Below, one piece after another: positions 40,426-63,081 of a DNA stretch of 64,000 nucleotides (position 1 is its first letter; each line of letters starts with the position of its first letter). Made by a program: the position numbers and the translations under genes. The notes under the pieces are model-generated. The model did not search any database. It was given only the letters and a program-made list of their open reading frames with translations, and was not told the origin of the DNA. The stretch spans positions 1,751,001 to 1,815,000 of the forward strand of contig NZ_CP041243.1 of the NCBI RefSeq assembly GCF_006547065.1, in the 5' to 3' direction. Source of the stretch: Brevundimonas sp. M20 (GTDB lineage Bacteria; Pseudomonadota; Alphaproteobacteria; Caulobacterales; Caulobacteraceae).

Positions 40426-40620
40426 GACCTGAACACGGGACGCTACTGACGCCGCCGCCGTGGTCCGGCCGGCCACCATGGCCTGTCGTGCAGGCGCATG
40501 CGTGCCGGATGCTCCGCCAGACTTGCCCGATCATCGAGAACTGGGCGGACCACCGGCTTCGGCCGGCCGGGCACGGGCGGTCGCGGCCGAACCGGCGCCC
40601 CGGCTCGGCCGCCCTTCAGC

Positions 40621-48439: not shown

Positions 48440-48530
48440 AGCGACAGGACGCCGCGGCCTTGTCCGCCGCCGTCAACGCGTCGTTCCGATGCGTCGGCGC
48501 CAGCTCCGCGGCCCAGGGCAACTTTGGAAA

Positions 48531-48561
48531 ATCGCGCAAGTCTTCGCTCCTAGTCGGCAAC
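48531..48561 (+). promoter_or_regulatory. AraC-type direct repeat site C, before Tat-SDR 1
   Basis: ATCGCGCAA at 48531-48539 and CGGCAAC at 48555-48561 are separated by 15 bp, placing the two GCAA cores 21 bp apart. The site ends 49 bp before the SDR start codon and is in the same orientation. It matches the sites at 60994-61024, 62041-62071 and 55538-55567. Confidence 0.6.
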
Positions 48562-48610
48562 TCCCGAGACCCGGTCTCCGTCACCCTGCAGTCCCTTCAA
48601 GGAGATTCCG

Positions 48611-49459
48611 ATGTCCGACACCTCTCGCCGTTCCATCCTGGCGCTCGCCGCCGCCGGTCCCGCCGTCGCCGTCGCGGGCGCCGCCCAGGCCGCCGCGGCG
48701 CCGGGCGCCCGGTCCGCACAGACGCGCCCCGGAGAGGGCCGCGCGGCCCTCATCACCGGCTCCTCCCGCGGGATCGGCGCCGCGACGGCGAAGCGGCTCG
48801 CCTCGGAGGGCTATGCGATCACCGTGAACTACCTGTCCGGCCGGGATCTGGCCGAGCAGGTCGTGCGGGACATCGAGGCCGGCGGCGGTCGGGCCATCGC
48901 GCGCCAGGCCGACGTCGCCGATCCGGCGGCGGTGGCGGCCCTGTTCGACGCCAACGACCAAGCCTTCGGGGGCGTGGATGTCGTGGTCAACAATGCGGGC
49001 GTCATGAACGTGGGCGCCTTCGCCCAGATGACCGACGAAGCCTTCGATCGGATGATCGCCACCAATGTGAAAGGCAGTTTCAACGTGCTGCGCGAAGCCG
49101 CGAAGCGGACGCGGGACGGCGGCCGCATCATCAGCCTGAGCTCCAGCATCACCCTCCAGCGCCCGCCCGGCGGCGGGGTCTACGCGGCCTCCAAGGCGAC
49201 CCAAGACTTCTACACCAGCGCCCTGGCCAAGGAGCTTGCCGGCCGCCGGATCTCGGTGAACGCGGTCGCTCCGGGCGCCGTGGACACCCGGCTCCTGCGC
49301 CAGCACGGCGAGGCGGCGCTGGCTCCGATCCCCGGGATGACCCCGCACGGCCGGATCGGCCTGCCGGAGGACATCGCCAATGTGATCGCCGCCCTGTGCG
49401 CCGACGACGGTGCGTGGATTCATGGCCAGGTCGTCTACGCCAACGGCGGGATCGCCTGA
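48611..49459 (+). CDS. SDR family oxidoreductase with Tat signal (copy 1)
   Basis: This 282-residue protein has a twin-arginine leader (MSDTSRRSILALAAAGPAVA, AQAAAA) followed by a complete classical SDR: cofactor motif TGSSRGIG, NNAG, catalytic Ser in SLSSSI and YAASK. Most SDRs are cytoplasmic. A Tat leader would let the enzyme fold with NAD(P)H before export to the periplasm. It is about 70% identical by eye to the SDR at 61080-61928, same length. An AraC-type gene follows 169 bp downstream. Confidence 0.88.
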   Translation: MSDTSRRSILALAAAGPAVAVAGAAQAAAAPGARSAQTRPGEGRAALITGSSRGIGAATAKRLASEGYAITVNYLSGRDLAEQVVRDIEAGGGRAIARQADVADPAAVAALFDANDQAFGGVDVVVNNAGVMNVGAFAQMTDEAFDRMIATNVKGSFNVLREAAKRTRDGGRIISLSSSITLQRPPGGGVYAASKATQDFYTSALAKELAGRRISVNAVAPGAVDTRLLRQHGEAALAPIPGMTPHGRIGLPEDIANVIAALCADDGAWIHGQVVYANGGIA

Positions 49460-49527
49460 GGACAGGCGCCACACCCCCGGCAGGGCCGCGCGCCGGCGCG
49501 CCGTCCTGCCGGGCGAGGCGGTCGACA

Positions 49528-49558
49528 CCCGCCCGATCGTCCGTCTTATTTGCCTGAT
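49528..49558 (-). promoter_or_regulatory. Degenerate AraC-type site E, before araC 1
   Basis: On the minus strand, ATCAGGCAA (49558-49550) matches ATCGGGCAA in 8 of 9 positions, while the second element is only partly kept (GGGCGGG in place of CGGCAAG). It ends 70 bp before the araC start, almost the same distance and orientation as site B before the second araC gene, where it is 71 bp. Confidence 0.35.
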
Positions 49559-49628
49559 CGTCCCGAGGCGTTGGCGCGCGCGAGGGCCATGGCTAGGATC
49601 GTCCCATCGTGAGCGGAGACGGTCGGAC

Positions 49629-50567
49629 ATGAAGCTGAACCTTGGCGACAGAATTTCGGGCGTCCTGGACGCCCAGTTCATCGGCGACGGTCACTACATG
49701 ACGCCGGTTCCGGGCCTGATCCTGATGCGGTCCTGTAGCCAGATGCCGCCGCAGCAGATGCTCTATCGTCCGACCCTGTGCATTATCGCCCAGGGCTCCA
49801 AGGAGATCATGGTGGGCGACCGGACCGTCCGCTACGGCCAGGGACAGACCCTGGTCGTGACCGTGGAGGCCCCGGTGCTCAGCCGCGTGATCGAGGCCTC
49901 GGCCGCCAGCCCCTACATCGGCGCGATCCTGGAGCTCGATGCCGGAATCATCCGTGACGTGGCGACCCGCCTAGGCGACCTCGAGACGACCGGCCCCTCC
50001 GGCTTCGGGCTCACGGTGCAGGATCTCGATGCGCAGATCACCGGCTCCCTCCAGAGATTGCTCGACCTGATCGGGGAGCCGAACGCCGTCGACATCCTGT
50101 ATCCTTCGATCATGCGCGAGATCGCCTACTGGCTCTTGCGCAGCCCGGCGGGCCGCGCGGTGGCCCGCATGGTGATTCCGGACGGCCAGCCGCACCGCAT
50201 CGCCCAGGCCATGTCGCATCTGCGCGACCATTTCGACAGCCCGGTCGACGTCAAGGCGCTGGCCAGGTCCGTCGGGATGAGCCCGTCCTCTTTTCACCAG
50301 CATTTCAAAGCCCTGACGGCGATGTCTCCGCTTCAGTATCAGAAGCACATCCGTCTGCTGGAAGCGCGACGGCGGATGGTCAGCGACGGCGATCAGGCCT
50401 CAACCGCCGCGGTCGCCGTGGGTTACGAGAGCGTGTCGCAATTCACCCGGGAGTACGCCCGGATGTTCGGCTCCCCGCCCCGGCGCGAAACCCGCCGGGC
50501 GCGGATGGCGCGCGTTCGTCCCGAAGGGTCCGCCGCCTCGCCGGAGGGCGCAAACGCAGCCTTCTGA
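49629..50567 (+). CDS. AraC family regulator with AraC_N domain (copy 1)
   Basis: This 312-residue regulator has an N-terminal AraC_N/cupin-like sensing domain (TPVPGLILMRSCSQ, YRPTLCIIAQGSKEIMVGD) and a C-terminal pair of helix-turn-helices (VDVKALARSVGMSPSSFHQHF, STAAVAVGYESVSQFTREYA). The closest paralogue is at 62143-63081, identical in length. Each is located directly downstream of a Tat-exported SDR gene. The ATG at 49629 matches the start of the paralogue in position. The probable operator is the ATCGGGCAA-N15-CGGCAA motif. Confidence 0.9.
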   Translation: MKLNLGDRISGVLDAQFIGDGHYMTPVPGLILMRSCSQMPPQQMLYRPTLCIIAQGSKEIMVGDRTVRYGQGQTLVVTVEAPVLSRVIEASAASPYIGAILELDAGIIRDVATRLGDLETTGPSGFGLTVQDLDAQITGSLQRLLDLIGEPNAVDILYPSIMREIAYWLLRSPAGRAVARMVIPDGQPHRIAQAMSHLRDHFDSPVDVKALARSVGMSPSSFHQHFKALTAMSPLQYQKHIRLLEARRRMVSDGDQASTAAVAVGYESVSQFTREYARMFGSPPRRETRRARMARVRPEGSAASPEGANAAF

Positions 50568-50570
50568 CGC

Positions 50571-51485
50571 TCAGGCCCCGCTCCGCTCGATCGTGCGTTG
50601 GGCCGCCCTGACGGCGGCGATGAAGGCGCCGAGGGCGGCCGGCACATGCCGACGCCCCGCGTAATAGAGGCAGAGCCCCGGGAACGGCGGCGACCACTCG
50701 GCCAGGAGGATCTCCAGCCGCCCCTCGGCGAGCGCGGCCCTTGCGAAGGTCTCGGGAACGAAGGCGATTCCCACACCCTCAAGGGCGGCCTCGACCATCA
50801 GCCCGCTGTGATCCAGCCCGAGGGTCCCGTCGACCTCCACCGCGGCCGCGGTCTGACCGCGCTCGAACTCCCATCGGTACAGCTTGCCGCTGGGCAGCCG
50901 CTGCCGGATGCACCGGTGATGTTTCAGATCGTCCGGCGTGGCCGGCCGGCCGTGGGCGGCGAGGTAGGCGGGCGACGCGACCGCGATGAAGCGCTGGGCC
51001 CCGCCGAACGGCACGGCGATCATGTCCTGCGGAACCGCCTCGGCGAGGCGTACGCCGGCGTCGAACCCCTCGGCCACGATGTCGACCAGCCGGCCCTCGA
51101 TGACGAGGTCGAGCCGGACGCCGGGGTGCTTCAGCACGAAGTCGGGTACGACATGTCGGATGAGCCAGCGCGCGCCGCCCTCATTGGCGTTGACCCGAAG
51201 CGCGCCTGCCAGTTCGCCGGCGCCGGAGCGGACGTCCGCGAGGATGTCGTCAAGCGCGCCGAGGGTCGGAGACAGTCGCTCCAGCAGGCGTGCGCCGGCC
51301 TCCGTGAGGCCGACACTGCGGGTAGTTCTGTGCAGCAGCCGCACGCCCAGGCGGCGCTCCAGGGCGCGCAGCGCATGGCTCAGCGAGGACCGAGAAACCC
51401 CGAGCGTGTCCGCCGCGCCCCGGAAGCTCCGATGTCGCGCCACGGCGGCGAAGGCCTTCAGCTCGGAGAGGCTCACGTCTTCCAT
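50571..51485 (-). CDS. LysR family regulator (1)
   Basis: This 304-residue LysR-type regulator has the N-terminal winged helix LSELKAFAAVARHRSFRGAA, LGVSRSSLSHALRALERRLG and a substrate-binding domain with DAGVRLAEAVPQDMIAVP. It is divergent from the SDR at 51577 with a 91-bp gap. Regulators of this CrgA/PecT-like type commonly control the adjacent oxidoreductase. A candidate palindrome overlaps its 5' end at 51486-51504. The start at 51485 follows from the conserved N-terminus; an upstream extension has no support. Confidence 0.9.
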   Translation of the reverse strand: MEDVSLSELKAFAAVARHRSFRGAADTLGVSRSSLSHALRALERRLGVRLLHRTTRSVGLTEAGARLLERLSPTLGALDDILADVRSGAGELAGALRVNANEGGARWLIRHVVPDFVLKHPGVRLDLVIEGRLVDIVAEGFDAGVRLAEAVPQDMIAVPFGGAQRFIAVASPAYLAAHGRPATPDDLKHHRCIRQRLPSGKLYRWEFERGQTAAAVEVDGTLGLDHSGLMVEAALEGVGIAFVPETFARAALAEGRLEILLAEWSPPFPGLCLYYAGRRHVPAALGAFIAAVRAAQRTIERSGA

Positions 51486-51504
51486 TGGTGTAAATCTCTC
51501 ACCA
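51486..51504. promoter_or_regulatory. Candidate LysR box 1
   Basis: TGGTG-N9-CACCA is a perfect 5-bp inverted repeat that starts at the base next to the LysR start codon and extends into the intergenic region towards the SDR gene. The location suits autorepression and divergent control. No second site was resolved. Confidence 0.4.
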
Positions 51505-51576
51505 TCCCATGCGGATAGCGAGACCTTATCGCACCAGTCGATCAGGCGCATCTCCCGCTCAGACAAGGAGATCCTC

Positions 51577-52401
51577 ATGAAAACCTGGCTTATCACCGGC
51601 GCATCCTCGGGCCTCGGCCTGTCCATGAGCCGCTTGCTGCTCGACCGCGGCGATCGCGTCGTTGCCGCGGTGCGACGGACCGAACCGCTGTCGGACCTGA
51701 AGGCCCGCTATCCGGACCGGCTGCAGGTGGTGACCTTCGACCTGAGCGACACGGCCGCCCTGCGGCGCGGGGTCGACGCCGCCTTCACCGCGGCGGGACG
51801 GATCGACGTGGTGGTCAGCAACGCGGGCTACGGCCTCTTCGGCGCCGCCGAGGAAGCGACCGACGACCAGATCGACAGACAGATCGCCACCAATCTGGTC
51901 GGGTCAATCCAGCTCATCCGGGCTGTCCTGCCGCGTCTCCGCGCCCAGGGCGGCGGCCTTGTGCAGCAGGTCTCCTCGGAGGGCGGCCAGGTCGCCTACC
52001 CGGCCTTCAGCCTCTACCACGCGACCAAATGGGGCATCGAAGGCTTCGTGGAGTCCGTCGCCCAGGAGGTCGAGCCCTTCGGCGTCCGCTTCACCCTCGT
52101 CGAGCCGGGTCCCACGGCCACGGGCTTCGGCGCCGGCCTCGACCTTGCGGAGCCCCTCGCCGCCTATGAGGCCACGCCGGCCGCCGCGGTGCGCCGGGCC
52201 GTCCTGGGCGGCGGCTTCGAGATCAAGGGCGACGCCGACCGGACCGTCGAGGCGATGATCGGCGCCGCAGACGCGGACCGTCCTCCGCGTCGTCTCGCCC
52301 TCGGCAGCACGGCCTACGACAATATCGAGGCGGCGCTCGTCGACCGGCTCGCCGAACTGCGCGGCCAGCGCACCGTGGCCTATGGGGCCGACCGGTCATG
52401 A
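51577..52401 (+). CDS. SDR family oxidoreductase
   Basis: This 274-residue classical SDR has a strong AAGGAG ribosome-binding site. The cofactor motif TGASSGLG, SNAG, catalytic Ser (QVSSEGG) and YHATK are all intact. The C-terminal region (ADRTVEAMIGAADADRPPRR) resembles the subgroup of oxidoreductases commonly found next to LysR regulators. It is divergent from a LysR gene and overlaps the following lipoprotein gene by 4 nt (ATGA). The substrate is unknown. Confidence 0.9.
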   Translation: MKTWLITGASSGLGLSMSRLLLDRGDRVVAAVRRTEPLSDLKARYPDRLQVVTFDLSDTAALRRGVDAAFTAAGRIDVVVSNAGYGLFGAAEEATDDQIDRQIATNLVGSIQLIRAVLPRLRAQGGGLVQQVSSEGGQVAYPAFSLYHATKWGIEGFVESVAQEVEPFGVRFTLVEPGPTATGFGAGLDLAEPLAAYEATPAAAVRRAVLGGGFEIKGDADRTVEAMIGAADADRPPRRLALGSTAYDNIEAALVDRLAELRGQRTVAYGADRS

Positions 52402-52907
52402 ACCGCCGGCTCGCCCTGGTCGTCGCCGCCGGCCTTGCGGCCTGCGCCCCGTCCGACCCCGCCCCTCCCCGCCCGGACTCCGGACCCAACGCCGTCCTCG
52501 GGACCTGGCGCATGGTGAGCGCCACGGTCGAGGACGAAGACGGCGTCAGCCGTCCCTACGGGGACCGCCCCAACGGACTTCTCGTCTTCACGCCCGAGAT
52601 GCGGTTCATCGAGGTCCTCACCCCCGCCGACGCCCCGCCCTTCGCCTCCGGAGTCCGCGGCGAGGGCACGGATGCGGAAAACCGCCGCGCCATGGCGACC
52701 ACCATCGGGTTCTTCGGCGTTTATTCGGTCGACGCCGACGGCGTCTTCACAGGCAATCGGGTCGAGGGCTCCACCTTCCCCAACTGGATCGGCGACGTCC
52801 GCACGCGGAAGGACCTCACCCTGGTGGTGCAGGGCGATCGGATGATCGAACGCTTCACCCGGCCGGACGGCGGCCGCGTCTCCGCCGAGTTCGAGCGCGT
52901 CCGCTAG
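52398..52907 (+). CDS. Lipocalin-like lipoprotein
   Basis: This 169-residue protein has a lipoprotein signal (MNRRLALVVAAGLAACAPSD), so Cys16 would be lipidated. A lipocalin-like domain follows with the motif LGTWRMVSATVEDEDG near residues 34-49 and beta-strands ending FTRPDGGRVSAEF. Lipocalin-like proteins bind small hydrophobic ligands. It is co-translated with the SDR (ATGA), which suggests the protein handles that enzyme's substrate or product at the envelope. Confidence 0.82.
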   Translation: MNRRLALVVAAGLAACAPSDPAPPRPDSGPNAVLGTWRMVSATVEDEDGVSRPYGDRPNGLLVFTPEMRFIEVLTPADAPPFASGVRGEGTDAENRRAMATTIGFFGVYSVDADGVFTGNRVEGSTFPNWIGDVRTRKDLTLVVQGDRMIERFTRPDGGRVSAEFERVR

Positions 52908-52931
52908 AGCCGGATTCCCGTCACCCGCCCT

Positions 52932-54026
52932 CTAGCGGCGGGCGCTCACCGCGGCGCCGCCGTAGACGACGTGGCGCCGCATCTCGTCGCTGAACAGTCC
53001 GTAGAGCATCGGCAGGTCCGGACGGGACGCCGCATCCAGCGCCGCCAGATGGTCGGGCGACAAGACCAGATCGACGGCCTTGAGATTGTCCTCCAGCTGG
53101 CTGACCCGGCTGACGCCCGTCAAAACCGTGTCGACCCCGGGCCGCGACAGCGCCCACGCCAGGGCGACCCGGGCGGGCGGCGCGCCGATCTCGGCGGCGA
53201 GAGCCTTGAGGGCGTCGACGATGGCCCAATTGCGCGCGGTGAACAGGCTGTCGCCGAACGGATTGGGGCCGTCCAGCCGCGCCCCGCTCTCGCCGTCGCC
53301 GGTCCCCGCTTCCTTCGGCAAGCCGCCCGCGCGCGACGGGGCCGCCTCCACGGCCGCCCGATCGTATTTGCCGGTCAGCAGACCATAGGCCAGCGGACTC
53401 CACGGCATCACGCCGAGGCCCGTATCGCGCGCCAAGGGCAGGTGCTCGGCTTCCACCTCCCGGCTGACCAGGGAATAGAAATACTGCAGGGCGATCGGCC
53501 CCGGCCGTCCCTGCGCGGCCGCCAGGGTGACGATCCGGGCGACATACCAGGCCGGGGCGTTGGATATCCCCCAGTAGCGGATCTTGCCGGCCCTCACGAG
53601 GGCCGACAGGGTCTCGAGCAGTTCCTCGGGCGGCGTCACGGAATCCCAGACGTGAACCCAGTAGAGGTCGATGTAGTCCGTCTTCAGCCGGCGCAGCGAC
53701 CCCTTGAGCGCGGCGTGGATATGTTTGGCGCCGTTGCCGCCGGCGCCGGGCCCGGCGGCAAAGCCGGCCTTGGTCGCCAGCACCAGCCGGTCGCGGCCGC
53801 CGCGCTGCGAGAGGATCTCGCCCAGCATCGTCTCGCCGCCGCCGGCGGCATAGACATCGGCCGTGTCGATCAGGTTGCCGCCCGCGCCGACATAGGCGTC
53901 GAACACCGCCTCGGCGGCGGACTGGTCCATGCCCCAGCGCGCCACGCCGAAGGTCATGGTCCCGAGCGCCAGAGGACTGACGATGAGGCCTGAACGGCCG
54001 AGGGGACGATAGGCGTCGAGGGGCAT
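52932..54026 (-). CDS. Aldo/keto reductase (cytoplasmic)
   Basis: This 364-residue aldo/keto reductase begins MPLDAYRPLGRSGLIVSPLA. The catalytic tetrad is present: Asp and Tyr in LIDTADVYAAGGGE, Lys in LATKAGF, and His in YWVHVWD. No signal peptide is present, unlike the reductase at 59695. It is divergent from the LysR gene at 54124. A LysR-type box lies between them, so the LysR protein probably controls it. Confidence 0.9.
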   Translation of the reverse strand: MPLDAYRPLGRSGLIVSPLALGTMTFGVARWGMDQSAAEAVFDAYVGAGGNLIDTADVYAAGGGETMLGEILSQRGGRDRLVLATKAGFAAGPGAGGNGAKHIHAALKGSLRRLKTDYIDLYWVHVWDSVTPPEELLETLSALVRAGKIRYWGISNAPAWYVARIVTLAAAQGRPGPIALQYFYSLVSREVEAEHLPLARDTGLGVMPWSPLAYGLLTGKYDRAAVEAAPSRAGGLPKEAGTGDGESGARLDGPNPFGDSLFTARNWAIVDALKALAAEIGAPPARVALAWALSRPGVDTVLTGVSRVSQLEDNLKAVDLVLSPDHLAALDAASRPDLPMLYGLFSDEMRRHVVYGGAAVSARR

Positions 54027-54106
54027 AGGAGAGCTCCGGTCTGTTTCGAACTGCAAACTGGACACGGCGAACGTTGAGCGGTAGCGGCCATTCATCACAA
54101 GGCCTC

Positions 54107-54121
54107 TTGAGTTCATCTCAA
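54107..54121. promoter_or_regulatory. LysR box 2
   Basis: TTGAG-TTCAT-CTCAA is a perfect inverted repeat of the T-N11-A type, ending 2 bp before the LysR start codon. It lies in the 97-bp region divergent to the aldo/keto reductase gene. Self-repression with activation of the divergent gene is the usual LysR arrangement. Confidence 0.55.
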
Positions 54122-54123
54122 TA

Positions 54124-55029
54124 ATGGATCGCGACACCTGGAACGATCTGGCGGTCTTCGCCGCCATCGTCGAGGCCGGCGGCTTCACGCGCGCGGGCGC
54201 CCGCCTCGGCGTCTCGGCCTCGGCGCTGAGCCACCGGATGCGGCTGATGGAGGCGCGCATGGGTGTGCGGCTGCTGAACCGCACCACCCGCAGCACCGCC
54301 CCGACCGAGGCGGGCGAACGCCTTGTGGCGAGCCTGCGCCCCGCCATGGCGGAGGTCGACGCCGCCCTGATCGCCCTCGATGTCGATCGGGCCCGGCCGG
54401 CCGGCCGGGTGCGCGTCACCGCCCATCGCTCGGCCGCCTTCGGCCTGGTCCTGCCGCGTCTCGCACGGTTCGCGGACGACTATCCGGAGATCAGCGTCGA
54501 ACTGACCGTCGATGACGGCCTGACCGATATTGTCGCCGCAGGGTATGATGCGGGGATCCGACGTCTGCCGTCCCTGGAGCAGGACATGGTCTCGGTTCGG
54601 CTGGACGACGGGGCCCGGCTCAGCATTGTCGCCGCTCCGGCCTACCTAGCCGCCTTCGGAGTGCCGGAAAATCCCTCCGACCTGAGCCGCCACCGTTGCC
54701 TCAGCTACCGCCTGCCGACGGCGGGCTCGCTCTACCGCTGGACGTTCGAGCGGGACGGCCAGACGACCACAATGGATGTCCCGGGCGGTTTCGTCACCAA
54801 CGACATCGATGTCCTGTGCGAGGGGGCCGTCGCCGGCGTCGGCCTGGCCTGCGTGCTCGAGACCCAGGCCGCGCCCTACGTCAAATCGGGCGCGCTCGTC
54901 AGCGTGCTGGAGGCCTGGCGGCCAATGCTGCCGCCCAACTACCTCTACTATGCCGGGCGGCGGAACCCGCCTCCGGCCCTGCGCGCCTTCATCGACGCCA
55001 TGAAGGCCCCGGCTCCCGCCGGGGCCTGA
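54124..55029 (+). CDS. LysR family regulator (2)
   Basis: This 301-residue regulator has the N-terminal winged helix (WNDLAVFAAIVEAGGFTRAG, LGVSASALSHRMRLMEARMG) and an effector domain with DAGIRRLPSLEQDMVSVRLD. It resembles the LysR protein at 50571-51485, including the shared end LYYAGRR.PP.LRAFI. It is divergent from the aldo/keto reductase at 52932. The ATG at 54124 is fixed by the conserved N-terminal helix. Confidence 0.9.
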   Translation: MDRDTWNDLAVFAAIVEAGGFTRAGARLGVSASALSHRMRLMEARMGVRLLNRTTRSTAPTEAGERLVASLRPAMAEVDAALIALDVDRARPAGRVRVTAHRSAAFGLVLPRLARFADDYPEISVELTVDDGLTDIVAAGYDAGIRRLPSLEQDMVSVRLDDGARLSIVAAPAYLAAFGVPENPSDLSRHRCLSYRLPTAGSLYRWTFERDGQTTTMDVPGGFVTNDIDVLCEGAVAGVGLACVLETQAAPYVKSGALVSVLEAWRPMLPPNYLYYAGRRNPPPALRAFIDAMKAPAPAGA

Positions 55030-55035
55030 CCGGAG

Positions 55036-55401
55036 TCACGCCCGGGTCCGCAACGGCTGCAGGACGGCCTCGGTCAGCGCGTCCTCCCGAAGGGGTCCCG
55101 CCGCCTCGGCGTACTCGGGGTCCTCGATCATGCCGACGAAGGCGTTCCGGTCGGGGTAGCGGACCAGGAGGACGGCGTCCCACGACTGGCCGTCCTCAGC
55201 CGACAGGGCCGGAAGGCCGTCGCCGAAATAGACGACCTCGATGCCGAACCGCGCGCCCACGGGACCCACGGCCGCCAGATATTCCGCATAGCGCGCACGG
55301 CCGCCCTCCGGCTTGAACCGCAGGAGATTGAGCATCACGACGGGCTGGCCATCGTCGTCGGCGACGAAGTCGGAGAGGGCTTCGGGGATGAGGGTGAGCA
55401 T
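55036..55401 (-). CDS. DUF1330-like protein
   Basis: This 121-residue protein with a ferredoxin-like (dimeric alpha-beta barrel) pattern contains PVVMLNLLRFKPEG, YAEYLAAVGP, VYFGDG and VLLVRYPDRNAFVGMIEDPE, typical of DUF1330 and related proteins. The function is not defined for the family. It is convergent with the LysR gene, and the upstream region carries site D of the AraC-type motif, so it may belong to the same regulon. Confidence 0.85.
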   Translation of the reverse strand: MLTLIPEALSDFVADDDGQPVVMLNLLRFKPEGGRARYAEYLAAVGPVGARFGIEVVYFGDGLPALSAEDGQSWDAVLLVRYPDRNAFVGMIEDPEYAEAAGPLREDALTEAVLQPLRTRA

Positions 55402-55537
55402 TGGACGGCCTTTGTTGACGATCGGCGGGACAAGCGGGCGATCGGCGCGGAGATCCGGGCCGGCCCCGGCCCGTGCGGTCGGTGGAGGAACAGTCGCGAG
55501 TCTAGCGCACGGGGGCCCTCGTCGCGCGGGTCTCCCG

Positions 55538-55567
55538 TTGCTCGATCCGCCGTATTGCTTGCCCGAT
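55538..55567 (-). promoter_or_regulatory. AraC-type direct repeat site D, before the DUF1330 gene
   Basis: On the minus strand, ATCGGGCAA (55567-55559) is followed by 15 bp and GAGCAA (55543-55538), with GCAA cores 21 bp apart. It is in the same orientation as the DUF1330 gene. Distance to that start is about 136 bp, more than at the other sites. Confidence 0.5.
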
Positions 55568-55585
55568 AGACCGGGCCGCGACGCT

Positions 55586-56458
55586 TCAGACCGGGCCGCC
55601 CGAGAGACCACTGATCGCCTGAGGGACCCATACGCCGCGAGCGAACAGCCAGGTCGCGAGCGCGACGAAGGCCGTGGCCGCCAGAAGCAGCGCCGCGGTC
55701 GCCAGCCGCCAGACGGGATGAGGGCGCGCCCCCCGCGCCCGGATGAAGACCTCGGCGACGATCAGATTGGGGATGTAGAAGAAGAACATCATGATCGCGT
55801 CGAACCAGCCGGTGAACCCCCGCCCCTGGCCGAGGTCGCCGGCCAGCACCGACCAGGCGGCGTACTCCATCCGGTAGAGCCACGAGCCGACCGTCAGGGC
55901 GAACAGGCGGATGGCCCAGGCGCGGTGCCGGTCGTAGCGACCCGCCCGCGCATGCCGCCAGCCCTCGACGGCGCAGAGCACCATCAGGACGCCGTAGCCG
56001 CCGAAGCCCACGTCCATCAGCCTGCCGCCGATCGTTCCGGCGCCGAGAATGAAGCCCAGCCCGCCGAGGCCGGCCAGACCGGCCGAGATCACATAGGTCC
56101 GCCCCAGCCACCGGTGAAGCGCCGGCAGACGCCGCCTCAGCCTGCCGATCAACTGGATCGGGCCCAACAGCAGGAGCACCCCGCCGGCCGCGAAATGAAC
56201 GCCGATCGCGAGCGTGGCGGCCGGCGCGGCGGCGTCGTGAAGTCCCGGGAGGGATTCGTTCCACCGCTCGGCCGCGCCGCGCAACGCGACGCCGCCGAAG
56301 AAGGCCAGGATGTAGATCGCGAAGATCGCCCCGCTGATCCAGGTCGCGGCGACCAGCAGACGCCCGCTCCATCTCAGGATCGCATCGGACCAGCCCCGGC
56401 CGTCCCCGCCCGCCCGCGCCGTGTCGGCGGAGCGCATTCGAACCTGAGATTGCGTCAT
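55586..56458 (-). CDS. DUF2306 membrane protein
   Basis: This 290-residue inner-membrane protein has about seven hydrophobic helices. It contains AIGVHFAAGGVLLLLGPIQL, LRRRLPALHRWLGRTYV and HRAWAIRLFALTVG, the signature of DUF2306, with conserved His residues that could bind a cofactor. The start at 56458 is chosen over an upstream ATG at 56524 since the added part has no hydrophobic or conserved content. Another piece of this family forms the first half of the chimeric ORF at 5258. Confidence 0.85.
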   Translation of the reverse strand: MTQSQVRMRSADTARAGGDGRGWSDAILRWSGRLLVAATWISGAIFAIYILAFFGGVALRGAAERWNESLPGLHDAAAPAATLAIGVHFAAGGVLLLLGPIQLIGRLRRRLPALHRWLGRTYVISAGLAGLGGLGFILGAGTIGGRLMDVGFGGYGVLMVLCAVEGWRHARAGRYDRHRAWAIRLFALTVGSWLYRMEYAAWSVLAGDLGQGRGFTGWFDAIMMFFFYIPNLIVAEVFIRARGARPHPVWRLATAALLLAATAFVALATWLFARGVWVPQAISGLSGGPV

Positions 56459-56581
56459 GTCGCGGATGGCCCCTATCGGATCCGAGGCCCCCGCCCCGGC
56501 CGTCGAAGGTGAGGGGCTTCGCATCGGCGGTCGATGCCCAAATCTGGCGGAAACCTGCCTTATTCTTCAGGCCTGCGCGCG

Positions 56582-56950
56582 TCAGAGGCCTCCCCCCTCA
56601 GAATCCGAAGTCGAATTGATCGGTCGGGGCAGAGGATTGCGGCCTCGGCGTCGGGCCTTGAACGGGACGACCGCGACGCCCTGGAAGACGGGCGCGTCCG
56701 GGGCCGGGGTCCGGACCGGCGCCGCAGCAGGCGCCGGCATGGGGCGGGCCATGCCCGGCAGGCGCGGCGTTCTCGGGGCCTTGAGCGGCGGCGGGGGCAG
56801 CGGCCCGCCGCGCGTCCGCTTCCAGACCGTCAGTTCGCTCTCCCACCAACCGACCCGGCCCGGCGACATCCGGACGCGCCGGGGAAAAGCGCCGTCACGC
56901 TCCATGCGCCAGGCGGTGGAGCGACTGATGCTGGCGATGTGCTCCACCAA
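56582..56950 (-). CDS. AlpA-like phage-type regulator
   Basis: This protein of about 122 residues starts at GTG (56950) or TTG (56953). Residues 1-50 (VEHIASISRSTAWRMERDGA, FPRRVRMSPGRVGWWESELT) are an AlpA-type winged helix used by P4-like prophages. The C-terminal 70 residues are proline-rich and basic. The usual first turn of the domain is missing and a TAA lies just upstream, so the N-terminus may be truncated. No integrase, excisionase or att repeat was seen beside it, so it is probably a remnant. Confidence 0.6.
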   Translation of the reverse strand: MVEHIASISRSTAWRMERDGAFPRRVRMSPGRVGWWESELTVWKRTRGGPLPPPPLKAPRTPRLPGMARPMPAPAAAPVRTPAPDAPVFQGVAVVPFKARRRGRNPLPRPINSTSDSEGGGL

Positions 56951-56953
56951 GGG

Positions 56954-57479
56954 CCTTTAGTACAGCCTTGTGATCCTGTTGGGGCTGAACGACGAAAAAT
57001 GGTGGAGCTTTTCAAAGACCCCCTCGGAAGGCCGTTCAGTGGTCTTTGTCGCTAGCATCGCGAGCACGCGACCGCTTGCTAATGACCCGCTGCAGATATG
57101 ACCGCAACACCAAGATCGGCGAAATCTTTGAGGCTCTCAAAGAGGCCGGCGTGCAAGAGCAAGCGGTTCAGGCCCGTGCAGATCGGCTGCTACTCCCCGA
57201 GGGGCGCCAGCATCAGGCGGGTGTTTCGAACTTCGTGTTGAAGTCGGAGGGAGCGCCCCGTCCCGCACCTCATAGTACGCTGGCCCTAGCCGGGAAGCGG
57301 ATCTTCTGCGAATCCGCAAAGAGTCAGCAGCGGTCTTTCCCTTCGTCCGACCTCCATCCGCCACCGCGCAGCGGCGACAGAGATCATAGGATCCGGCAAC
57401 TAATTTGAGGTTTCGGACATTCGCATCCGGGCCCCGATCTTCGAATGTGCAAATGCGATCACTCCGCATGAGACATCGA
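56954..57479. other. Intergenic region between AlpA-like gene and SDR operon
   Basis: No gene could be supported in this 526-bp stretch. An open frame from 57046 to 57408 encodes RNTKIGEIFEALKEAGVQEQ and then low-conservation sequence; I could not match it to a family. A degenerate AraC-type site (ATCCGGCAA at 57391, CGGACA about 14 bp on) lies 60 bp before the SDR. The composition is less GC-rich than neighbouring genes, consistent with decayed foreign DNA. Confidence 0.45.
57391..57420 (+). promoter_or_regulatory. Degenerate AraC-type site F, before the SDR-MFS operon
   Basis: ATCCGGCAA at 57391-57399 matches ATCGGGCAA in 8 of 9 positions, but the second element (CGGACA at 57414) is 14 rather than 15 bp away and has two mismatches. 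It is in the same orientation as the SDR gene, 60 bp before its start. The call is tentative. Confidence 0.3.
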
Positions 57480-58400
57480 ATGACCCAGTGGACCACCTCA
57501 GACATCCCCAACCAACGCGGTCGCACCGCCGTCGTCACAGGGCCGGGCGGGCTCGGTTTCGAGGACGCCCTCGCGCTCGCCAGAGCCGGCGCGAACGTCA
57601 TCCTCGCCGGCCGCAATCCGGCCAAGGGTGAGGCCGCGGCAACCGCCATCCGCGACGCCGTCCCCTCGGCGGCGGTCCGGTTCGAGTTCATCGACCTTTC
57701 AAACCTCGCCGCCGTCAACGCTTTCGCAGACCGCCTCAAGGCCCAGCTCGACGGCCTGGACCTGCTGATCAACAACGCCGGGGTCATGACCCCGCCGAAC
57801 CGGGAATTGACCGTCGACGGCTTCGAGCTTCAGTTCGGGGCCAACCACCTCGCCCACTTCGCCCTGACGGCCTGGCTTATGCCCCTGCTGAAGAAGGGGG
57901 AAGACGCGCGCATGGTCAGCGTGTCCAGCATCGCCGCGCGGCGGGGCGCCATCGATTTCGAGAATCTCAACGCCCAGCGCGACTATCGTCCGATGCCCGC
58001 CTACGCCCAGTCCAAACTGGCCTGTCTGATGTTCGCGCTGGAATTTCAGCGTCGCAGCGACGCGGCCGGCTGGGGCGTCTCGGGCATCGCCGCCCATCCG
58101 GGCATCTCGCGAACCCAGCTACTCTACAACACGCCCGGCGGGCATCCCCACCGGCGTCTGCGCAGCGCGCTCTGGTTCCTGTTCCAGCCCGTCGCCCGGG
58201 GCGCGCTGCCGACTCTCTACGCGGCGACGGCGCACGAGGCCGAAGGGGGCGGCTACTACGGCCCCGACGGCCTGGCCGAAACCCGGGGTCATCCCGCTGT
58301 CGCCCGCATTCCCCCGGCGGCGCTCGACCAGGCTGCGGCCGCCCGCCTCTGGGAGATGTCGGAACGTCTGACCGGGGTCCAGTTCGAGGCTCAATCATGA
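57480..58400 (+). CDS. SDR family oxidoreductase, retinol dehydrogenase-like
   Basis: This 306-residue SDR starts at the ATG at 57480. It has NNAGVM, SVSSIAARRG and the catalytic YAQSK, and is longer than the neighbouring SDRs, resembling retinol dehydrogenase or WW-domain oxidoreductase types. The glycine-rich loop reads TGPGGLG, one residue shorter than the normal TGxxxGxG. This may affect cofactor binding. Its end overlaps the MFS gene by 4 nt (ATGA), and the MFS gene overlaps the Tat aldo/keto reductase, giving a three-gene operon. Confidence 0.88.
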   Translation: MTQWTTSDIPNQRGRTAVVTGPGGLGFEDALALARAGANVILAGRNPAKGEAAATAIRDAVPSAAVRFEFIDLSNLAAVNAFADRLKAQLDGLDLLINNAGVMTPPNRELTVDGFELQFGANHLAHFALTAWLMPLLKKGEDARMVSVSSIAARRGAIDFENLNAQRDYRPMPAYAQSKLACLMFALEFQRRSDAAGWGVSGIAAHPGISRTQLLYNTPGGHPHRRLRSALWFLFQPVARGALPTLYAATAHEAEGGGYYGPDGLAETRGHPAVARIPPAALDQAAAARLWEMSERLTGVQFEAQS

Positions 58401-59698
58401 TCCGTTCGTTCCCCTACGTTCAGGGGTGGCGTCTCGCCGCCCTTCTCGCCGTCCTTCTCCTCATCAACGCCCTGAGCCAGATTGACCGCATCCTCCCCTT
58501 CATCCTGGCGGAGGCGATCAAGACCGACCTCAACCTGACCGATACCCAGATCGGCCTGCTGACCGGCGCCGCCTTCGCCATCTGCTACACCCTGCTGTCC
58601 CTCCCGCTCGCGCGGGCCGCAGACCGGGGGTCCCCCCGGCGGGTGCTTCTGGTCTGTCTCATCGTATGGAGCGCCATGACCGCGTTCGGCGGTCTGGCGG
58701 GGAGCTTCGTGTTTCTCGCCCTGACGCGTTTCGGCGTCGCCGTGGGCGAGGCCGGCGCCCTGCCTTCGGGGCACGGTCTGATCGGCCGCCTGGTGTCTCC
58801 TGAACGCCGTGGCCTGGCCATCGGCCTCTTCTCCATGGGCATTCCGCTCGGCACCATGGTCGGCTTCGCCGCCGGCGGCGCGATCGCCGACGGCCTCGGC
58901 TGGCGGACGGCTCTGATCGCCTTCGGCGCCGCCGGCGGCCTGGCCGCGGCGCTCGCTCTGTTGGTGATCCCCCCGACCCCGGCCCAACCCCGCGGACCGG
59001 CGGACGCCCAGCCCTTCCTGGCCTCGGCGGTCCGGCTCGCCACCTCCTCCGGCTTCCGCTGGCTCATGATCGCCAGCCTCGCCCTGGGTTTCGGCAGCGC
59101 GCCCTTCTACGCCTTCTCCGCCCCCTTCCTGATCCGGACGCACGACTTCACCGCCGGACAGGTGGGGCTCGCCTTCGGCCTGCTGCAAGGATTGACCGGG
59201 GTGGCCGGGACCCTGCTCGGCGGCCGCGCCTTCGACCGCGCCCGGGCGGGGACCGGCCATGTGCTCCGTATACCGGCCGTCGGCCTTCTGATCGCCGCGC
59301 CCGCCATAGGCGCCGGCCTGTTCGCCCCGCAGGGATGGATGTCCATCGCCCTGTTCGTCCCGGCCATGTTCGCCTTCGCCTTCCTGCTGCCCGCCGCCTT
59401 CAGCGCGGCGCACCTGGTCGCCGGACCGGGCCGCCAAGCGCTCGCCTCCAGTCTGGTGATGATCGCCTCCGGCCTTCTGGGCCCGGCTGTGGGACCCGTA
59501 CTGGTCGGCCTGATCAGCGACGGCGTGTCTTCCGCAGGGTTGGCCAACAGCCTCGGCGTCGGACTGCTGATCGTGCCGGTCGGCGTCATCCTCACCGGCC
59601 TGGCCTGCCTGGTCGCGGACCGCCGGATCCCCGCGGTCTGCGCGAGGGCGTTGTGGCCGTCTGAATCATCCCCCGCTCAACTGAGGAAACAGCCATGA
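58397..59698 (+). CDS. MFS transporter (Spns-like)
   Basis: This 433-residue major facilitator has twelve transmembrane helices, with the motif-A-like loop RAADRGSPRRVLLV after helix 2 and the DRILPFILAEAIKTDLNLTD opening typical of the spinster-like (MFS_1) group. The substrate is not predictable. It is located between an SDR and an aldo/keto reductase with 4-nt overlaps on both sides, which suggests it exports or imports the compound those enzymes act on. Confidence 0.9.
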   Translation: MIRSFPYVQGWRLAALLAVLLLINALSQIDRILPFILAEAIKTDLNLTDTQIGLLTGAAFAICYTLLSLPLARAADRGSPRRVLLVCLIVWSAMTAFGGLAGSFVFLALTRFGVAVGEAGALPSGHGLIGRLVSPERRGLAIGLFSMGIPLGTMVGFAAGGAIADGLGWRTALIAFGAAGGLAAALALLVIPPTPAQPRGPADAQPFLASAVRLATSSGFRWLMIASLALGFGSAPFYAFSAPFLIRTHDFTAGQVGLAFGLLQGLTGVAGTLLGGRAFDRARAGTGHVLRIPAVGLLIAAPAIGAGLFAPQGWMSIALFVPAMFAFAFLLPAAFSAAHLVAGPGRQALASSLVMIASGLLGPAVGPVLVGLISDGVSSAGLANSLGVGLLIVPVGVILTGLACLVADRRIPAVCARALWPSESSPAQLRKQP

Positions 59699-60804
59699 AA
59701 CATGAGACTGAAGACAGAGGTTCGCGACCCGCCCGGCGGGCTGTTCTGGGGGCGATGGGCCTGGGCGTCGCCGCCTTGGGCGCCGCCTCCGTCGCCGCGC
59801 CGGCGGCGGCCCAGGCCGGGCGCACGCAGACACACCCGGCTGGCCCCGCCGACCGGCCGCCGGCGCGCACCCGGTCCGTCCCGAGGACGGGTCAAAGCCT
59901 CACGACGCTGGGCCTCGGCACCTTCATGACCTTCGACGCCAGACCCGGGGACGACCGGACGCGCCTGCGCGAGGTGTTCCGTCGCTATGTCGAGGGCGGG
60001 GGGCGTGTCGTCGACACTTCGCCCCTCTACGGCTCCGCCGAGGTTTCAGTCGGCGCCTTCCTCGCGGATACCCCGTCGGATGAACTTTTCGTGGCGAACA
60101 AGATCTGGTCGACAGGGGAATACGCCGGCGACGACAGTCATGCCGTCGCCAGTCTCGAGCAGTCGAGGCTGCGCACCTGGCGAGACACCATCGATCTGAT
60201 GCAGTGCCACGCCCTCGTGAACGCGGGGTTCGTCGTGCCCCTGCTCCAGGCCTGGAAGAAGGAGGGCCGCATCCGCCACGTCGGCGTCACCCACCACGAG
60301 AGCGGCCAGCAGGACGCCTTGGCCGCGTTCGTCGAACGGGGCGACGTCGACGTCGTCCAGACCAACTACTCCATCTTCGACAGGGCCGCGGAACGGCGTC
60401 TGTTGCCCGCCGCGGCGGATCAGGGCGTCGGCGTCCTCATCAATCTGCCGCTGGAGAAGGCCCGGCTGATGCATGTGGTGCAGGGGCGCCCCCTGCCCGA
60501 CTTCGCCCGGGAGTTCGAGGCCTCCACCTGGGCGCAGTTCTTCCTCAAATGGGTGATGGGCCATCCGGCGGTCACCACCGTCCTGTGCGGCACCTCAAAC
60601 CCGAACCACGCGAGCGACAACGTCCAGGCGATGTACGGCCCCTTGCCGGACGCGGCCATGCGGCGGCGGATGGTCGCGCACATGGAGACCCTCCCGGGCT
60701 TCTCCGACATCGGTCGAATGCCCTGGTATCCGGGCAAGGACAGCCAGTATCAGGGGCTGATGCGGGCCTCACAGGCTGCGATGCGGGATCGGTTGACGGG
60801 CTGA
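59695..60804 (+). CDS. Aldo/keto reductase with Tat signal
   Basis: This 369-residue protein carries a twin-arginine leader (RPARRAVLGAMGLGVAALGA, cut near AAAQA) followed by an aldo/keto reductase with catalytic Asp and Tyr in VVDTSPLYGSAE, Lys in VANKIW and His in LMQCHALVN. The late NADPH-binding helix region reads LCGTSNPNHASDN. Export by Tat would put a folded, cofactor-loaded reductase in the periplasm. Its start overlaps the MFS stop (ATGA). It is followed, after a 275-bp gap with site A, by a Tat-exported SDR. Confidence 0.88.
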   Translation: MKHETEDRGSRPARRAVLGAMGLGVAALGAASVAAPAAAQAGRTQTHPAGPADRPPARTRSVPRTGQSLTTLGLGTFMTFDARPGDDRTRLREVFRRYVEGGGRVVDTSPLYGSAEVSVGAFLADTPSDELFVANKIWSTGEYAGDDSHAVASLEQSRLRTWRDTIDLMQCHALVNAGFVVPLLQAWKKEGRIRHVGVTHHESGQQDALAAFVERGDVDVVQTNYSIFDRAAERRLLPAAADQGVGVLINLPLEKARLMHVVQGRPLPDFAREFEASTWAQFFLKWVMGHPAVTTVLCGTSNPNHASDNVQAMYGPLPDAAMRRRMVAHMETLPGFSDIGRMPWYPGKDSQYQGLMRASQAAMRDRLTG

Positions 60805-60993
60805 GCGTCTGCGGCCGCGAAACTCTTCGCAGGGTGACGCCCGACGCGACCCCCGAGCGTCCCGCATCCGGCCGTCAGCGACAGGCGCAGTCCAGGCGAT
60901 GGCCGGCCTGCGGAACGTCGGCGGTTTCCCCCGCCCCCGCGGCAGTCAATGCCTTGCCCGGCGGCGGGTCGAAGCGAGGCCGCGCGTCAAAGG

Positions 60994-61024
60994 ATCGGGC
61001 AAATCATCGTTTCGATACGGCAAG
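60994..61024 (+). promoter_or_regulatory. AraC-type direct repeat site A, before Tat-SDR 2
   Basis: ATCGGGCAA (60994-61002), 15 bp, and CGGCAAG (61018-61024) place two GCAA cores 21 bp apart on the plus strand. The site ends 55 bp before the SDR start codon. This is the best match to the consensus of all the sites found. Confidence 0.65.
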
Positions 61025-61079
61025 ACCCGTCCGACGGGCCCGTGCTCCTCTTGGCCCACCCCAGACGGAGACCCAGCCC

Positions 61080-61928
61080 ATGTCCGACACCTCCCGCCGA
61101 TCCCTCCTGGCCCTTGCCGCCGCAGTCGCACCCACCCTCGCCATGGCCGACGCCGCCAAGGCCCAGACCGCGGCCGCCTCCGGCGGCGTCCAGCCCCGGG
61201 CCGGAGCCGGCCGCGCCGCCATCGTCACCGGCTCGTCCCGCGGCATCGGCGCCGCCACCGCAAGGCGACTGGCGCGCGACGGCTTTGCGGTCACAGTCAA
61301 CTATCTGACCAACGCCGAGCTCGCCGCCCGGGTCGTGCGCGACATCGAGGCGGCCGGCGGGCGCGCCATCGCCCGTCAGGCCGATGTCGCCGACCCGGCC
61401 GCCGTCCGCGCCCTGTTCGACGCCAACGAGCAGGCCTTCGGCGGCGTGGACGTCGTCATCAGCAACGCGGCCATCATGAACACCGCGCCCTTCGCCCAGT
61501 TCGAGGACGAGGCTTTCGACCGCATGATCGCCACCAATGTGAAGGGCAGCTTCAACGTCCTGCGGGAAGCCGCCCGCCGCACCCGGGACGGCGGACGTAT
61601 CGTCACCCTGGCTTCCACCTCCATCAAGGCCAAGCGGGCCACCCACGGAGGCTACGCCGCCACCAAGGCCGTTCAGGAGATCTATGCGGGCGTCCTGTCC
61701 AAGGAGCTCGCGGGGCGCCGCATCTCGGTCAACGCCCTGGCCCCGGGACCGACCAATACGAGCCTGCTCGACGTGCCGCCGCCCCTGCGCGCCCAAGCCG
61801 CCCAGATGACGCCCTATGGCCGCATCGGCGAGCCGGAGGATGTCGCCAACGCCATCGCCGCGCTCTGCTCGACGGACGCCGAATGGATCAACGGCCAGAT
61901 CGTCTACGCCAACGGCGGCTTTCTCTAG
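61080..61928 (+). CDS. SDR family oxidoreductase with Tat signal (copy 2)
   Basis: This 282-residue protein starts MSDTSRRSLLALAAAVAPTL with a Tat leader. A complete SDR domain follows: TGSSRGIG, NAAIM in place of the NAG motif, catalytic Ser in LASTSI and YAATK. It aligns without gaps in most parts with the SDR at 48611-49459 (for example DIEA.GGRAIARQADVADPA, DRMIATNVKGSFNVLREAA). The ATG lies at 61080-61082. An AraC-type gene follows, as with copy 1. The duplication suggests related but different substrates. Confidence 0.88.
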   Translation: MSDTSRRSLLALAAAVAPTLAMADAAKAQTAAASGGVQPRAGAGRAAIVTGSSRGIGAATARRLARDGFAVTVNYLTNAELAARVVRDIEAAGGRAIARQADVADPAAVRALFDANEQAFGGVDVVISNAAIMNTAPFAQFEDEAFDRMIATNVKGSFNVLREAARRTRDGGRIVTLASTSIKAKRATHGGYAATKAVQEIYAGVLSKELAGRRISVNALAPGPTNTSLLDVPPPLRAQAAQMTPYGRIGEPEDVANAIAALCSTDAEWINGQIVYANGGFL

Positions 61929-62040
61929 GACGGCCTGAACGTCCGCGCGCGCCGGTCGCCGACGCGGCGGCCCACCGGCCGCTTCGGCGCGATCTTGCGC
62001 GGTGGTCGACGTCCCCGCACACGAGGTGCGTCAATCTGCG

Positions 62041-62071
62041 CTTGCCGAATCCAACGCCAAAATTGCCCAAT
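62041..62071 (-). promoter_or_regulatory. AraC-type direct repeat site B, before araC 2
   Basis: On the minus strand, ATTGGGCAA (62071-62063), 15 bp, and CGGCAAG (62047-62041) carry GCAA cores 21 bp apart. It lies 71 bp before the araC start and points away from it. This probably provides self-control by the AraC protein. Confidence 0.6.
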
Positions 62072-62142
62072 CCTCCGGACGCCGTTGTTCAACTTCCGCT
62101 GCGAGCGTAGGATTCGGTCATAAACAGCTGCGGACGTCGATC

Positions 62143-63081
62143 ATGGCCACCGAACTCACCTCGGCGATTGCCGAAATCCTGGACGCCGAGGGTGTGAGCA
62201 ACGGCGCCTATGACACGCCCGTACCCGGCCTTCGCCTGCTGCGCACCCACGCCTCCGTAGCGCCGCGTCACATGCACTACCGGCCGTCGCTGTGCCTCGT
62301 CGCCCAGGGTCGCAAGGAGGTGCTGGTCGGCGACACCACCATCACCTACGGCGACATGCAGTCGATGATCGTGACGGTCGAGGTTCCTGTCCTGAGCCAG
62401 ATGAAGGCCTCGGCCGAGGAGCCCTATGTCGGCGCCGTGCTGGAGCTCAACCCGCAGATCATTCTGGAGGTCGCCACGCAGCTTGAGGCCGGCGGGGCCC
62501 CGCGAGGCAAGCCGGGATCCGGCCTGGTCGTCCAGAACATCGACGCCCATGTCGCGGCGTCCATCCTGCGTCTGCTCGACCTCGTCCGCCACCCGCAGGG
62601 CGTCGAGATCCTTTATCCGGTGGTCATGCGCGAGATTTCCTACTGGCTCCTGACCGGTCCGGCCGGCGGCAATGTGGCGCGCCTGGCGATCCCGGAGGGC
62701 CAGCCCGCGCGCATCACGAAGGCGATCCAGCAGATGCGTGAAAGCTTCGATGCGCCGATCAGCGTCCCGGACATGGCGAGGACAGCCGGCATGAGCGCCT
62801 CCTCCTTTCACCAGCATTTCAAGATGCTGACCTGCATGTCCCCGCTCCAGTACCAGAAGCATCTGCGCCTGCTGGAAGCGCGGCGCCTGATGATGACCGA
62901 CGGCGAAAAGGCCGGGAACGCCGCCCTGTCAGTCGGTTACGAGAGCGTGTCCCAATTCAGCCGCGAGTTCGCGCGCATGTTCGGCGACTCCCCGCGTCGG
63001 CAAACCCGGGCATCTGAGCCGCGGTCCGCCCGCCCGGGGTCGGAAGATCACGGCGCCGGGATCGGCGCGGCTATGGGCTGA
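62143..63081 (+). CDS. AraC family regulator with AraC_N domain (copy 2)
   Basis: This 312-residue regulator has the N-terminal AraC_N domain (TPVPGLRLLRTHASVAPRHM, YRPSLCLVAQGRKEVLVGD) and C-terminal helix-turn-helices (ISVPDMARTAGMSASSFHQHF, NAALSVGYESVSQFSREFAR). It is closely related to the AraC protein at 49629-50567 along its whole length. The DNA-binding helices are nearly identical between copies, so both could recognise the same ATCGGGCAA-N15-CGGCAA sites. The ATG at 62143 gives equal length to copy 1. Confidence 0.9.
   Translation: MATELTSAIAEILDAEGVSNGAYDTPVPGLRLLRTHASVAPRHMHYRPSLCLVAQGRKEVLVGDTTITYGDMQSMIVTVEVPVLSQMKASAEEPYVGAVLELNPQIILEVATQLEAGGAPRGKPGSGLVVQNIDAHVAASILRLLDLVRHPQGVEILYPVVMREISYWLLTGPAGGNVARLAIPEGQPARITKAIQQMRESFDAPISVPDMARTAGMSASSFHQHFKMLTCMSPLQYQKHLRLLEARRLMMTDGEKAGNAALSVGYESVSQFSREFARMFGDSPRRQTRASEPRSARPGSEDHGAGIGAAMG

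Follow-up and report, generated by a model that had tools for sequence, protein, structure and literature searches.

The window analysed here, i.e., positions 1751001-1815000 (64,000 nucleotides) of the 3.315-Mb single-contig genome of Brevundimonas sp. M20, carries a tandem direct repeat with a 21-bp period upstream of two araC-type regulator genes (araC1 and araC2) and of several oxidoreductase genes, among them short-chain dehydrogenases (SDRs). This motif very probably serves as operator for AraC regulators of the YqhC type (an N-terminal domain, PF06719, and an AraC helix-turn-helix, HTH), which would activate oxidoreductase genes and probably regulate their own expression. In many other proteobacteria, too, this predicted site precedes genes for oxidoreductases and transporters. 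Five-digit coordinates below are window positions and seven-digit ones genome positions.

The predicted operator in related loci

AraC1 and AraC2 score above the cut-offs of PF06719, HTH_18 and HTH_AraC, and are paralogues (55% identical). YqhC of Escherichia coli aligns with both and matches the AraC proteins of a same-genus genome, G262, at 29-31%. At E ≤ 1e-40 the genome holds five AraC2 relatives, i.e., AraC1, AraC2 itself, a third close one (AraC3, 61% to AraC2, encoded at 1817421 just past the window end) and two distant ones (AraC4 and AraC5). The closest named relative of AraC2 (94%) belongs to a Brevundimonas metagenome genome. The distant relatives (36%) lie at L161:11750-12577 and from L162:4419 onward, with first recognition helices STFHEHFR and TSLHRHFK; a site before AraC5 (score 10.9) was dropped as too weak.

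From 84,980 species genomes we took the best 80 of 254 AraC relatives, giving 79 distinct loci. A first matrix, built up from four window sites plus three sites of relatives, placed a site of at least 12 on the strand opposite to araC in 57 of the 79 loci and on the same strand in none, compared with 1.8% of 1420 control scans. The second matrix (37 bp) was trained on 74 sites upstream of araC genes, none of them from the three Brevundimonas loci or from E. coli, and finds 163 sites of at least 14 in 76 non-Brevundimonas loci versus 1 when reversed. A site of at least 20, antisense and within 260 bp upstream of araC, is present in 76 of 79 loci, largely at training positions (the exceptions are L082, which has one at 19.0, L093 and L108). 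A further 88 sites of at least 20, spread over 46 loci, are distinct by their flanks and none is identical to a training site; ten column-permuted matrices over 1.28 Mb and the reversed matrix yielded no site at this cut.

Homologues of araC have a reverse site in 80 of 85 cases and a forward one in none, while homologues of SDR4 (50/74) and of the major facilitator superfamily (MFS) transporter (33/37) have forward sites of at least 20 and never reverse ones, counts that overlap where a divergent araC and its MFS or SDR target share one site. Because the first gene caller produced many spurious antisense open reading frames (ORFs) in G+C-rich loci and a codon-usage caller misplaced SDR2, target counts rest on recurrent ORF clusters and tblastn placement. 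Around 164 sites of at least 20, these clusters comprise araC in the opposite direction in 78 loci, SDR genes in the same direction in 64 loci (70 of 71 ORFs) and MFS genes in 34 loci. The usual arrangement is thus a site that points from araC to a divergent target. It is kept by araC3, while araC1 and araC2 have the site without a divergent gene, which explains why the initial annotation saw the motif run with the gene before enzyme genes and reversed before araC genes, an observation that is correct, as are the distances it gave for the two araC sites (70 and 71 bp from the start codons).

Homologues of the DUF1330 gene have forward sites in two of six cases (42.3 and 51.2, the 51.2 site being also that of a divergent araC), and among those of the DUF2306 gene one of 11, the Brevundimonas one, has a site. 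No site was found before homologues of SDR3 (0/11), of two aldo/keto reductases, AKR1 (0/5) and AKR2 (0/11), of the two LysR-type genes (0/16 and 0/6) or of Lipocalin (0/6) in these loci; some of these may be operon-internal, as AKR2 is here. Strong sites also stand before DUF2147 genes (18 loci) and 2Fe-2S subunit genes (7 loci), e.g., at L160:10442 and L157:11636, and genes that look MarR-like by eye occupy the other side of sites in 12 loci.

Sites in the window

The initial annotation described four main sites sharing ATCGGGCAA and CGGCAA halves 15 bp apart, plus two weaker ones. Direct reading of the letters finds a motif of this kind at all six places; the exact form ATCGGGCAA-N15-CGGCAA, however, occurs in one of the four only (60994-61023, +), the others having halves ATCGCGCAA/CGGCAA (48531, +), ATTGGGCAA/CGGCAA (62071, -) and ATCGGGCAA/GAGCAA (55567, -). 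What all four do share, as proposed, are GCAA cores 21 bp apart, i.e., GCAA-N17-GCAA, which occurs six times in the window, four of them at the main sites. The weaker sites read ATCAGGCAA/GGGCGG (49558, -) and ATCCGGCAA/GGACAT (57391, +). The repeat as first described was too short: the unit is approximately GGATNNGGCAA, present twice with a 21-bp period, and its second half has GGCATTC in most relatives. Short forms carry little signal by themselves, as GGCAA-N15..17-GGCAA is not enriched genome-wide (21 versus 22 for the reversed control). A 15-base pattern with up to three mismatches matches 192 times in the genome versus 102 for its control; the top two of its matches as listed are the SDR2 and SDR1 sites (0 and 1 mismatch), and the third (1 mismatch) lies elsewhere. 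Moreover, as the SDR pair and the AraC pair are paralogous and may share promoter sites by descent, the four main sites are not four independent observations.

The second matrix finds seven window sites of at least 8 (Table 1), against 0.30 on average and never more than 3 for 200 column-permuted matrices, and the next match scores 4.0. Since the best permuted-matrix matches in the window reached 15.0, 13.0 and 12.0 in 20 trials and the reversed matrix gave one at 11.1, single sites below about 16 need positional and comparative support. R1, a sequence-only profile of 36 dereplicated sites without Brevundimonas, ranks the first five identically (E from 1.5e-5 to 0.072). Two sites, at 56566 and 40534, were absent from the initial annotation, and its division into strong and weak sites is largely inverted: the "weak" 57391 site is the best of all, whereas the "strong" 48531 site escapes models built without Brevundimonas.

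Table 1 Genes and predicted operators of the window. Matrix, score with the second matrix (match position in brackets); R1, match in the window
Feature	Position	Strand	Matrix	R1	Remarks
SDR1, short-chain dehydrogenase	48611..49459	+			twin-arginine-like N-terminus (by eye)
araC1	49629..50567	+			PF06719 N-terminal domain and AraC HTH
DUF1330 gene	55036..55401	-			
DUF2306 membrane-protein gene	55586..56458	-			
SDR4	57480..58400	+			conserved target; forward site ≥20 in 50/74 homologues of related loci
MFS transporter	58397..59698	+			operon gene 2; forward site ≥20 in 33/37 homologues
AKR2, aldo/keto reductase	59695..60804	+			operon gene 3
SDR2	61080..61928	+			SDR1 paralogue (66%)
araC2	62143..63081	+			PF06719 N-terminal domain and AraC HTH
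Predicted operator, SDR4-MFS-AKR2 operon	57385..57424	+	39.3 (57388)	21.8 bits, E 1.5e-5	best in window; 55 bp before SDR4 ATG (57480); E 8.0e-4 in genome
Predicted operator, araC2	62038..62077	-	24.9 (62074)	E 5.8e-4	upstream of araC2, reversed relative to it
Predicted operator, DUF2306 gene	56530..56569	-	21.7 (56566)	E 0.0024	71 bp before probable ATG (56458)
Possible operator	40498..40537	-	16.7 (40534)	E 0.018	between ORF ending 40621 and frameshifted TetR-type gene
Predicted operator, araC1	49525..49564	-	13.8 (49561)	10.3 bits, E 0.072	upstream of araC1, reversed relative to it
Probable operator, SDR2 (Tat-SDR2)	60988..61027	+	10.0 (60991)	partial, E 0.84	52 bp before ATG (61080)
Probable operator, DUF1330 gene	55534..55573	-	8.2 (55570)	8.8 bits, E 0.22	132 bp before the gene
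Possible operator, SDR1 (Tat-SDR1)	48525..48564	+	0.75 (48528)	no match	46 bp before ATG; least supported

Genomic concentration and conservation

Genome-wide, R1 gives at least six matches at E ≤ 10 (150 scored of 741 candidates), five of the six within 1807534-1849240, which supports a concentration of sites around this region (42 kb of 3.3 Mb). R2, a profile of 32 Brevundimonas sites, ten of them from this genome, gives at least 14 matches (150 scored of 564 candidates), 12 of the 14 within 1791503-1849245; among those listed, the regional matches outside its training set are at 1791503 (21.7 bits, the 40534 site) and 1821517. Further sites lie beyond the window: the one at 1817316 (matrix 27.4) precedes the SDR gene that diverges from araC3, the one at 1849206 (30.5) an SDR4-like gene and the one at 1841648 (29.0) a gene for a molybdopterin-binding oxidoreductase. 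A match at 1821520 (L161:9520-9556; matrix 16.1, R2 E 0.40), kept at 34 of 37 positions with a score of 19.2 in the close same-genus relative G205, lies upstream of a possible late start of the next gene and is a possible further site; another downstream of the window (L161:9134-9170) scores 8.8 and is kept in G205 at 13.4.

Within the genus, an AraC at E < 1e-100 is encoded in six of 101 genomes; each of these also gives an R1 match at E ≤ 0.05 (two of them near this cut, at 0.022 and 0.048), versus three of the other 95 (Fisher p 6.6e-8, assuming that both searches drew the same 101 genomes). The comparison with related genomes suggested by the initial annotation supports it on this point, with sites conserved upstream of orthologues in related Brevundimonas and widely upstream of AraC relatives. 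In G205, the sites retain 32 (operon), 34 (araC2), 30 (DUF2306), 26 (araC1), 28 (DUF1330), 34 (SDR2) and 35 (SDR1) of 37 positions; the flanking DNA on the gene side is often conserved too, and the SDR1 site is kept together with its neighbouring DNA. Orthologue sites there score 26.0 (DUF2306), 21.3 (araC1) and 9.9 (DUF1330). G262 is more distant (AraC2 75%, SDR2 83%): its SDR2 region keeps GGATC(A/G)GGCAAA and CGGCAAGACC with a changed spacer, and its araC2 region keeps two TTGCCnnAT blocks. This three-species footprint at SDR2 and araC2, with half-sites kept while the spacer changed, is the clearest evidence of selection on the half-sites themselves.

Near the site at 40534, the TetR-type gene (39606-40479, -) is split over two frames, with TetR_N in one and TetR_C_14 in the other, either by a sequencing error or because the gene is decayed. 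Between it and the site we noticed by eye a G+C-rich inverted repeat, AAGGGCCGCC...GGGCGGCCCTT (40400-40425), which makes the TetR-type gene a doubtful target. R2 scores this site at 21.7 bits even though it lies outside the R2 training set. At the region edge, 40621-45102 (-) encodes a 1493-aa ORF whose C-terminus appears autotransporter-like by eye, with repeated sequence.

Anatomy of the predicted operator and proposed mechanism

Across the 83 sites left after dereplication, conservation reaches as far as TGnAGGATnAGGCAAG and TGnGGGTTCnGGCATTC, and TGnAGGA and GGCA recur 21 bp on, i.e., each half-site has two boxes; the Brevundimonas half-site is approximately GGATCnGGCAA. Half-to-half identity peaks at offset 21 (8.41 of 16 in 63 sites; 2.1-5.5 at the other offsets from 14 to 29), a peak that is partly built in, given that both GGCA cores were already part of the matrix used to find the sites. 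The seven window sites behave alike (8.71 at 21, 2.3-5.1 otherwise). By position, repeat identity is 0.89-0.98 at the four GGCA positions and 0.59 and 0.79 at -3 and -2, where a TG, repeated at +18/+19, lies outside the matrix. This supports the earlier suggestion of an AraC-type operator form, with direct repeats two helical turns apart. A -10-like signal at +55 to +60 in the 83 sites, weak or absent before SDR1 and SDR2, suggests that the second half would overlap the -35 position.

We postulate that a regulator dimer would sit on two tandem half-sites (approximately GGATNNGGCAA, GGCA cores 21 bp apart), with one monomer contacting each half-site through both of its HTHs. The site would point to the activated gene, its promoter-proximal half over the -35 position and followed by the -10-like element. 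AraC1-3 share the first recognition helix SSFHQHFK or STFHQHFK with most of 76 relatives and have YESVSQF in the second HTH (majority of relatives, YESASQF); with near-identical first recognition helices, the three probably share operators. Their whole-HTH closeness to the relatives' majority is 0.57, 0.55 and 0.62. Such regulators would control the SDR4-MFS-AKR2 operon, the DUF2306 and DUF1330 genes, probably SDR2, possibly SDR1, and their own araC genes, and beyond the window an SDR, another SDR4-like gene and a molybdopterin oxidoreductase. By analogy with YqhC, the inducer may be aldehyde-like. An evenly balanced proposal goes further: PF06719 AraC regulators may have kept one operator code from gamma- to alphaproteobacteria, and the three co-located Brevundimonas paralogues may share it in a circuit that is cross-wired, regulates itself and covers both exported and cytoplasmic oxidoreductases, with three different sensor domains acting on one set of sites.

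Counter-evidence and alternative explanations

Several observations weigh against this reading. By whole HTH, the distant AraC4 and AraC5 (0.54 and 0.53) resemble the relatives' majority roughly as much as AraC1-3 do, and any of the three close paralogues may be the binder at a given site. Ten of the regional R2 matches are its own training sites, while matches outside that set also occur outside the region, at 2241888 (19.4) and 3127662. The former, matched by both R1 and R2, falls within an ORF in another part of the genome when that ORF is read at its greatest length, and was treated as chance. R1 missed the 1841648 site (150 scored of 741 candidates), and the E cut of the co-occurrence test was chosen after the list had been seen. 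The SDR1 site has no R1 match in the window up to E 5 and no clear -10 is visible before SDR1; none of 39 SDR1/SDR2 homologues with enough upstream DNA, Brevundimonas orthologues included, has a site of at least 14, which makes the SDR1 and SDR2 sites a Brevundimonas matter. The SDR1 site, for which position and conservation in one close relative speak, is the least supported.

A tentative explanation, compatible with the operator reading, is that SDR1 and SDR2 are preceded by a variant peculiar to this lineage, distinct from the operator of the family, to which AraC1 or AraC2 alone would bind. The ends of these two sites (GGCAAG and GGCAAC instead of GGCATTC, as likewise in the araC2 and DUF1330 sites), their low R1 scores and the homologues without sites elsewhere are in line with it; however, AraC1-3 barely differ in their first recognition helices and GGCAA-type second halves occur in other genera (L101, L106).

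Some AraC-family members repress, and the sites could be operators from which the regulators mainly repress, with inducer-dependent release. The araC1 and araC2 sites lie just upstream of promoter-like sequence (by eye) conserved in G205, a placement that could serve negative autoregulation. Nevertheless, we consider this unlikely in view of the targets in other genera, where the proximal half would lie over the -35 position with the -10-like element at a fixed distance, and of what is known of similar regulators: MtlR activates from direct repeats just upstream of -35 (PMC4514859), XylS, once bound, comes to interact with RNA polymerase (PMC5481539) and YqhC is reported to be an activator (PMC5297802).

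Far less probable still, the motif would be a functionless promoter similarity inherited by duplicated SDR and araC genes. SDR1/SDR2 and AraC1/AraC2 are indeed paralogous and the two SDR sites share spacer letters, but a matrix from other genera finds the window sites, the SDR4-operon, DUF2306 and DUF1330 promoters are not copies of the SDR or araC ones, and the SDR2 and araC2 half-sites persist in G262 with a changed spacer. Finally, it is hardly credible that the motif is bound by a different regulator of the window, be it the two LysR-type proteins or the TetR-type one: the LysR genes share the region and the TetR-type gene is near 40534, but the 21-bp tandem direct repeat is of the AraC/XylS form, and LysR as binder was rejected on gene-class counts, its homologues having no site (0/16 and 0/6) against 80 of 85 for araC in loci chosen by araC, which favours this outcome.

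Comparison with known systems

Activation by YqhC-type regulators through this operator thus remains the reading that we prefer. The operator would make regulons of a widespread, little-studied regulator family predictable from sequence, and, in many proteobacteria, would link genes of the SDR, MFS, DUF2147, 2Fe-2S and molybdopterin oxidoreductase types to YqhC-like control, which suggests a role for them in carbonyl stress or the turnover of carbonyl compounds. With it, one can also readily test whether paralogues encoded close together use common sites or each have their own. Among the papers listed in searches of an open-licence library, none describes the operator across proteobacteria in general, its spread or the regulon presented here.

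As a class, however, the operator is probably not new, contrary to the initial annotation, given that the E. coli yqhC-yqhD intergenic region, with the same type of regulator, carries the same site (30.6; AGAAATAGGCAAGACATTGGCAGAAATGAGCATTGAG, L181:3236, + strand) 83 bp before yqhD. There it points at yqhD, with yqhC divergent and CACAAT at the -10 offset, and R1 matches it at 14.1 bits (E 0.0053). YqhC is described as an activator binding the yqhD promoter, and yqhD and yqhE (dkgA) respond to glyoxal or furfural (PMC5297802). One binding region was found by genomic SELEX (gSELEX) and the regulator is reported as single-target (PMC8249747), unlike the three close paralogues and several targets here; a study by ChIP-exo (chromatin immunoprecipitation with exonuclease digestion) mentions sequence-specific YqhC sites (PMC8464067), and a term search of another paper on E. 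coli YqhC (PMC8262776) returned no mention of a binding site, consensus or motif. A YqhD homologue was not found in the 79 related loci at E 1e-30.

The tandem half-site architecture is already known for AraC/XylS proteins. XylS binds Pm at two direct repeats of 15 bp that, like the half-sites here, have two boxes each (A and B), but the boxes are TGCA and GGTA and the effectors benzoates (PMC5481539). Likewise, MtlR binds PmtlE at two 15-bp blocks of two boxes each, with a 22-bp period and upstream of -35, with other box sequences and as a mannitol regulator (PMC4514859). With the same site at E. coli yqhC-yqhD, the Brevundimonas operator is thus best placed within a known kind.

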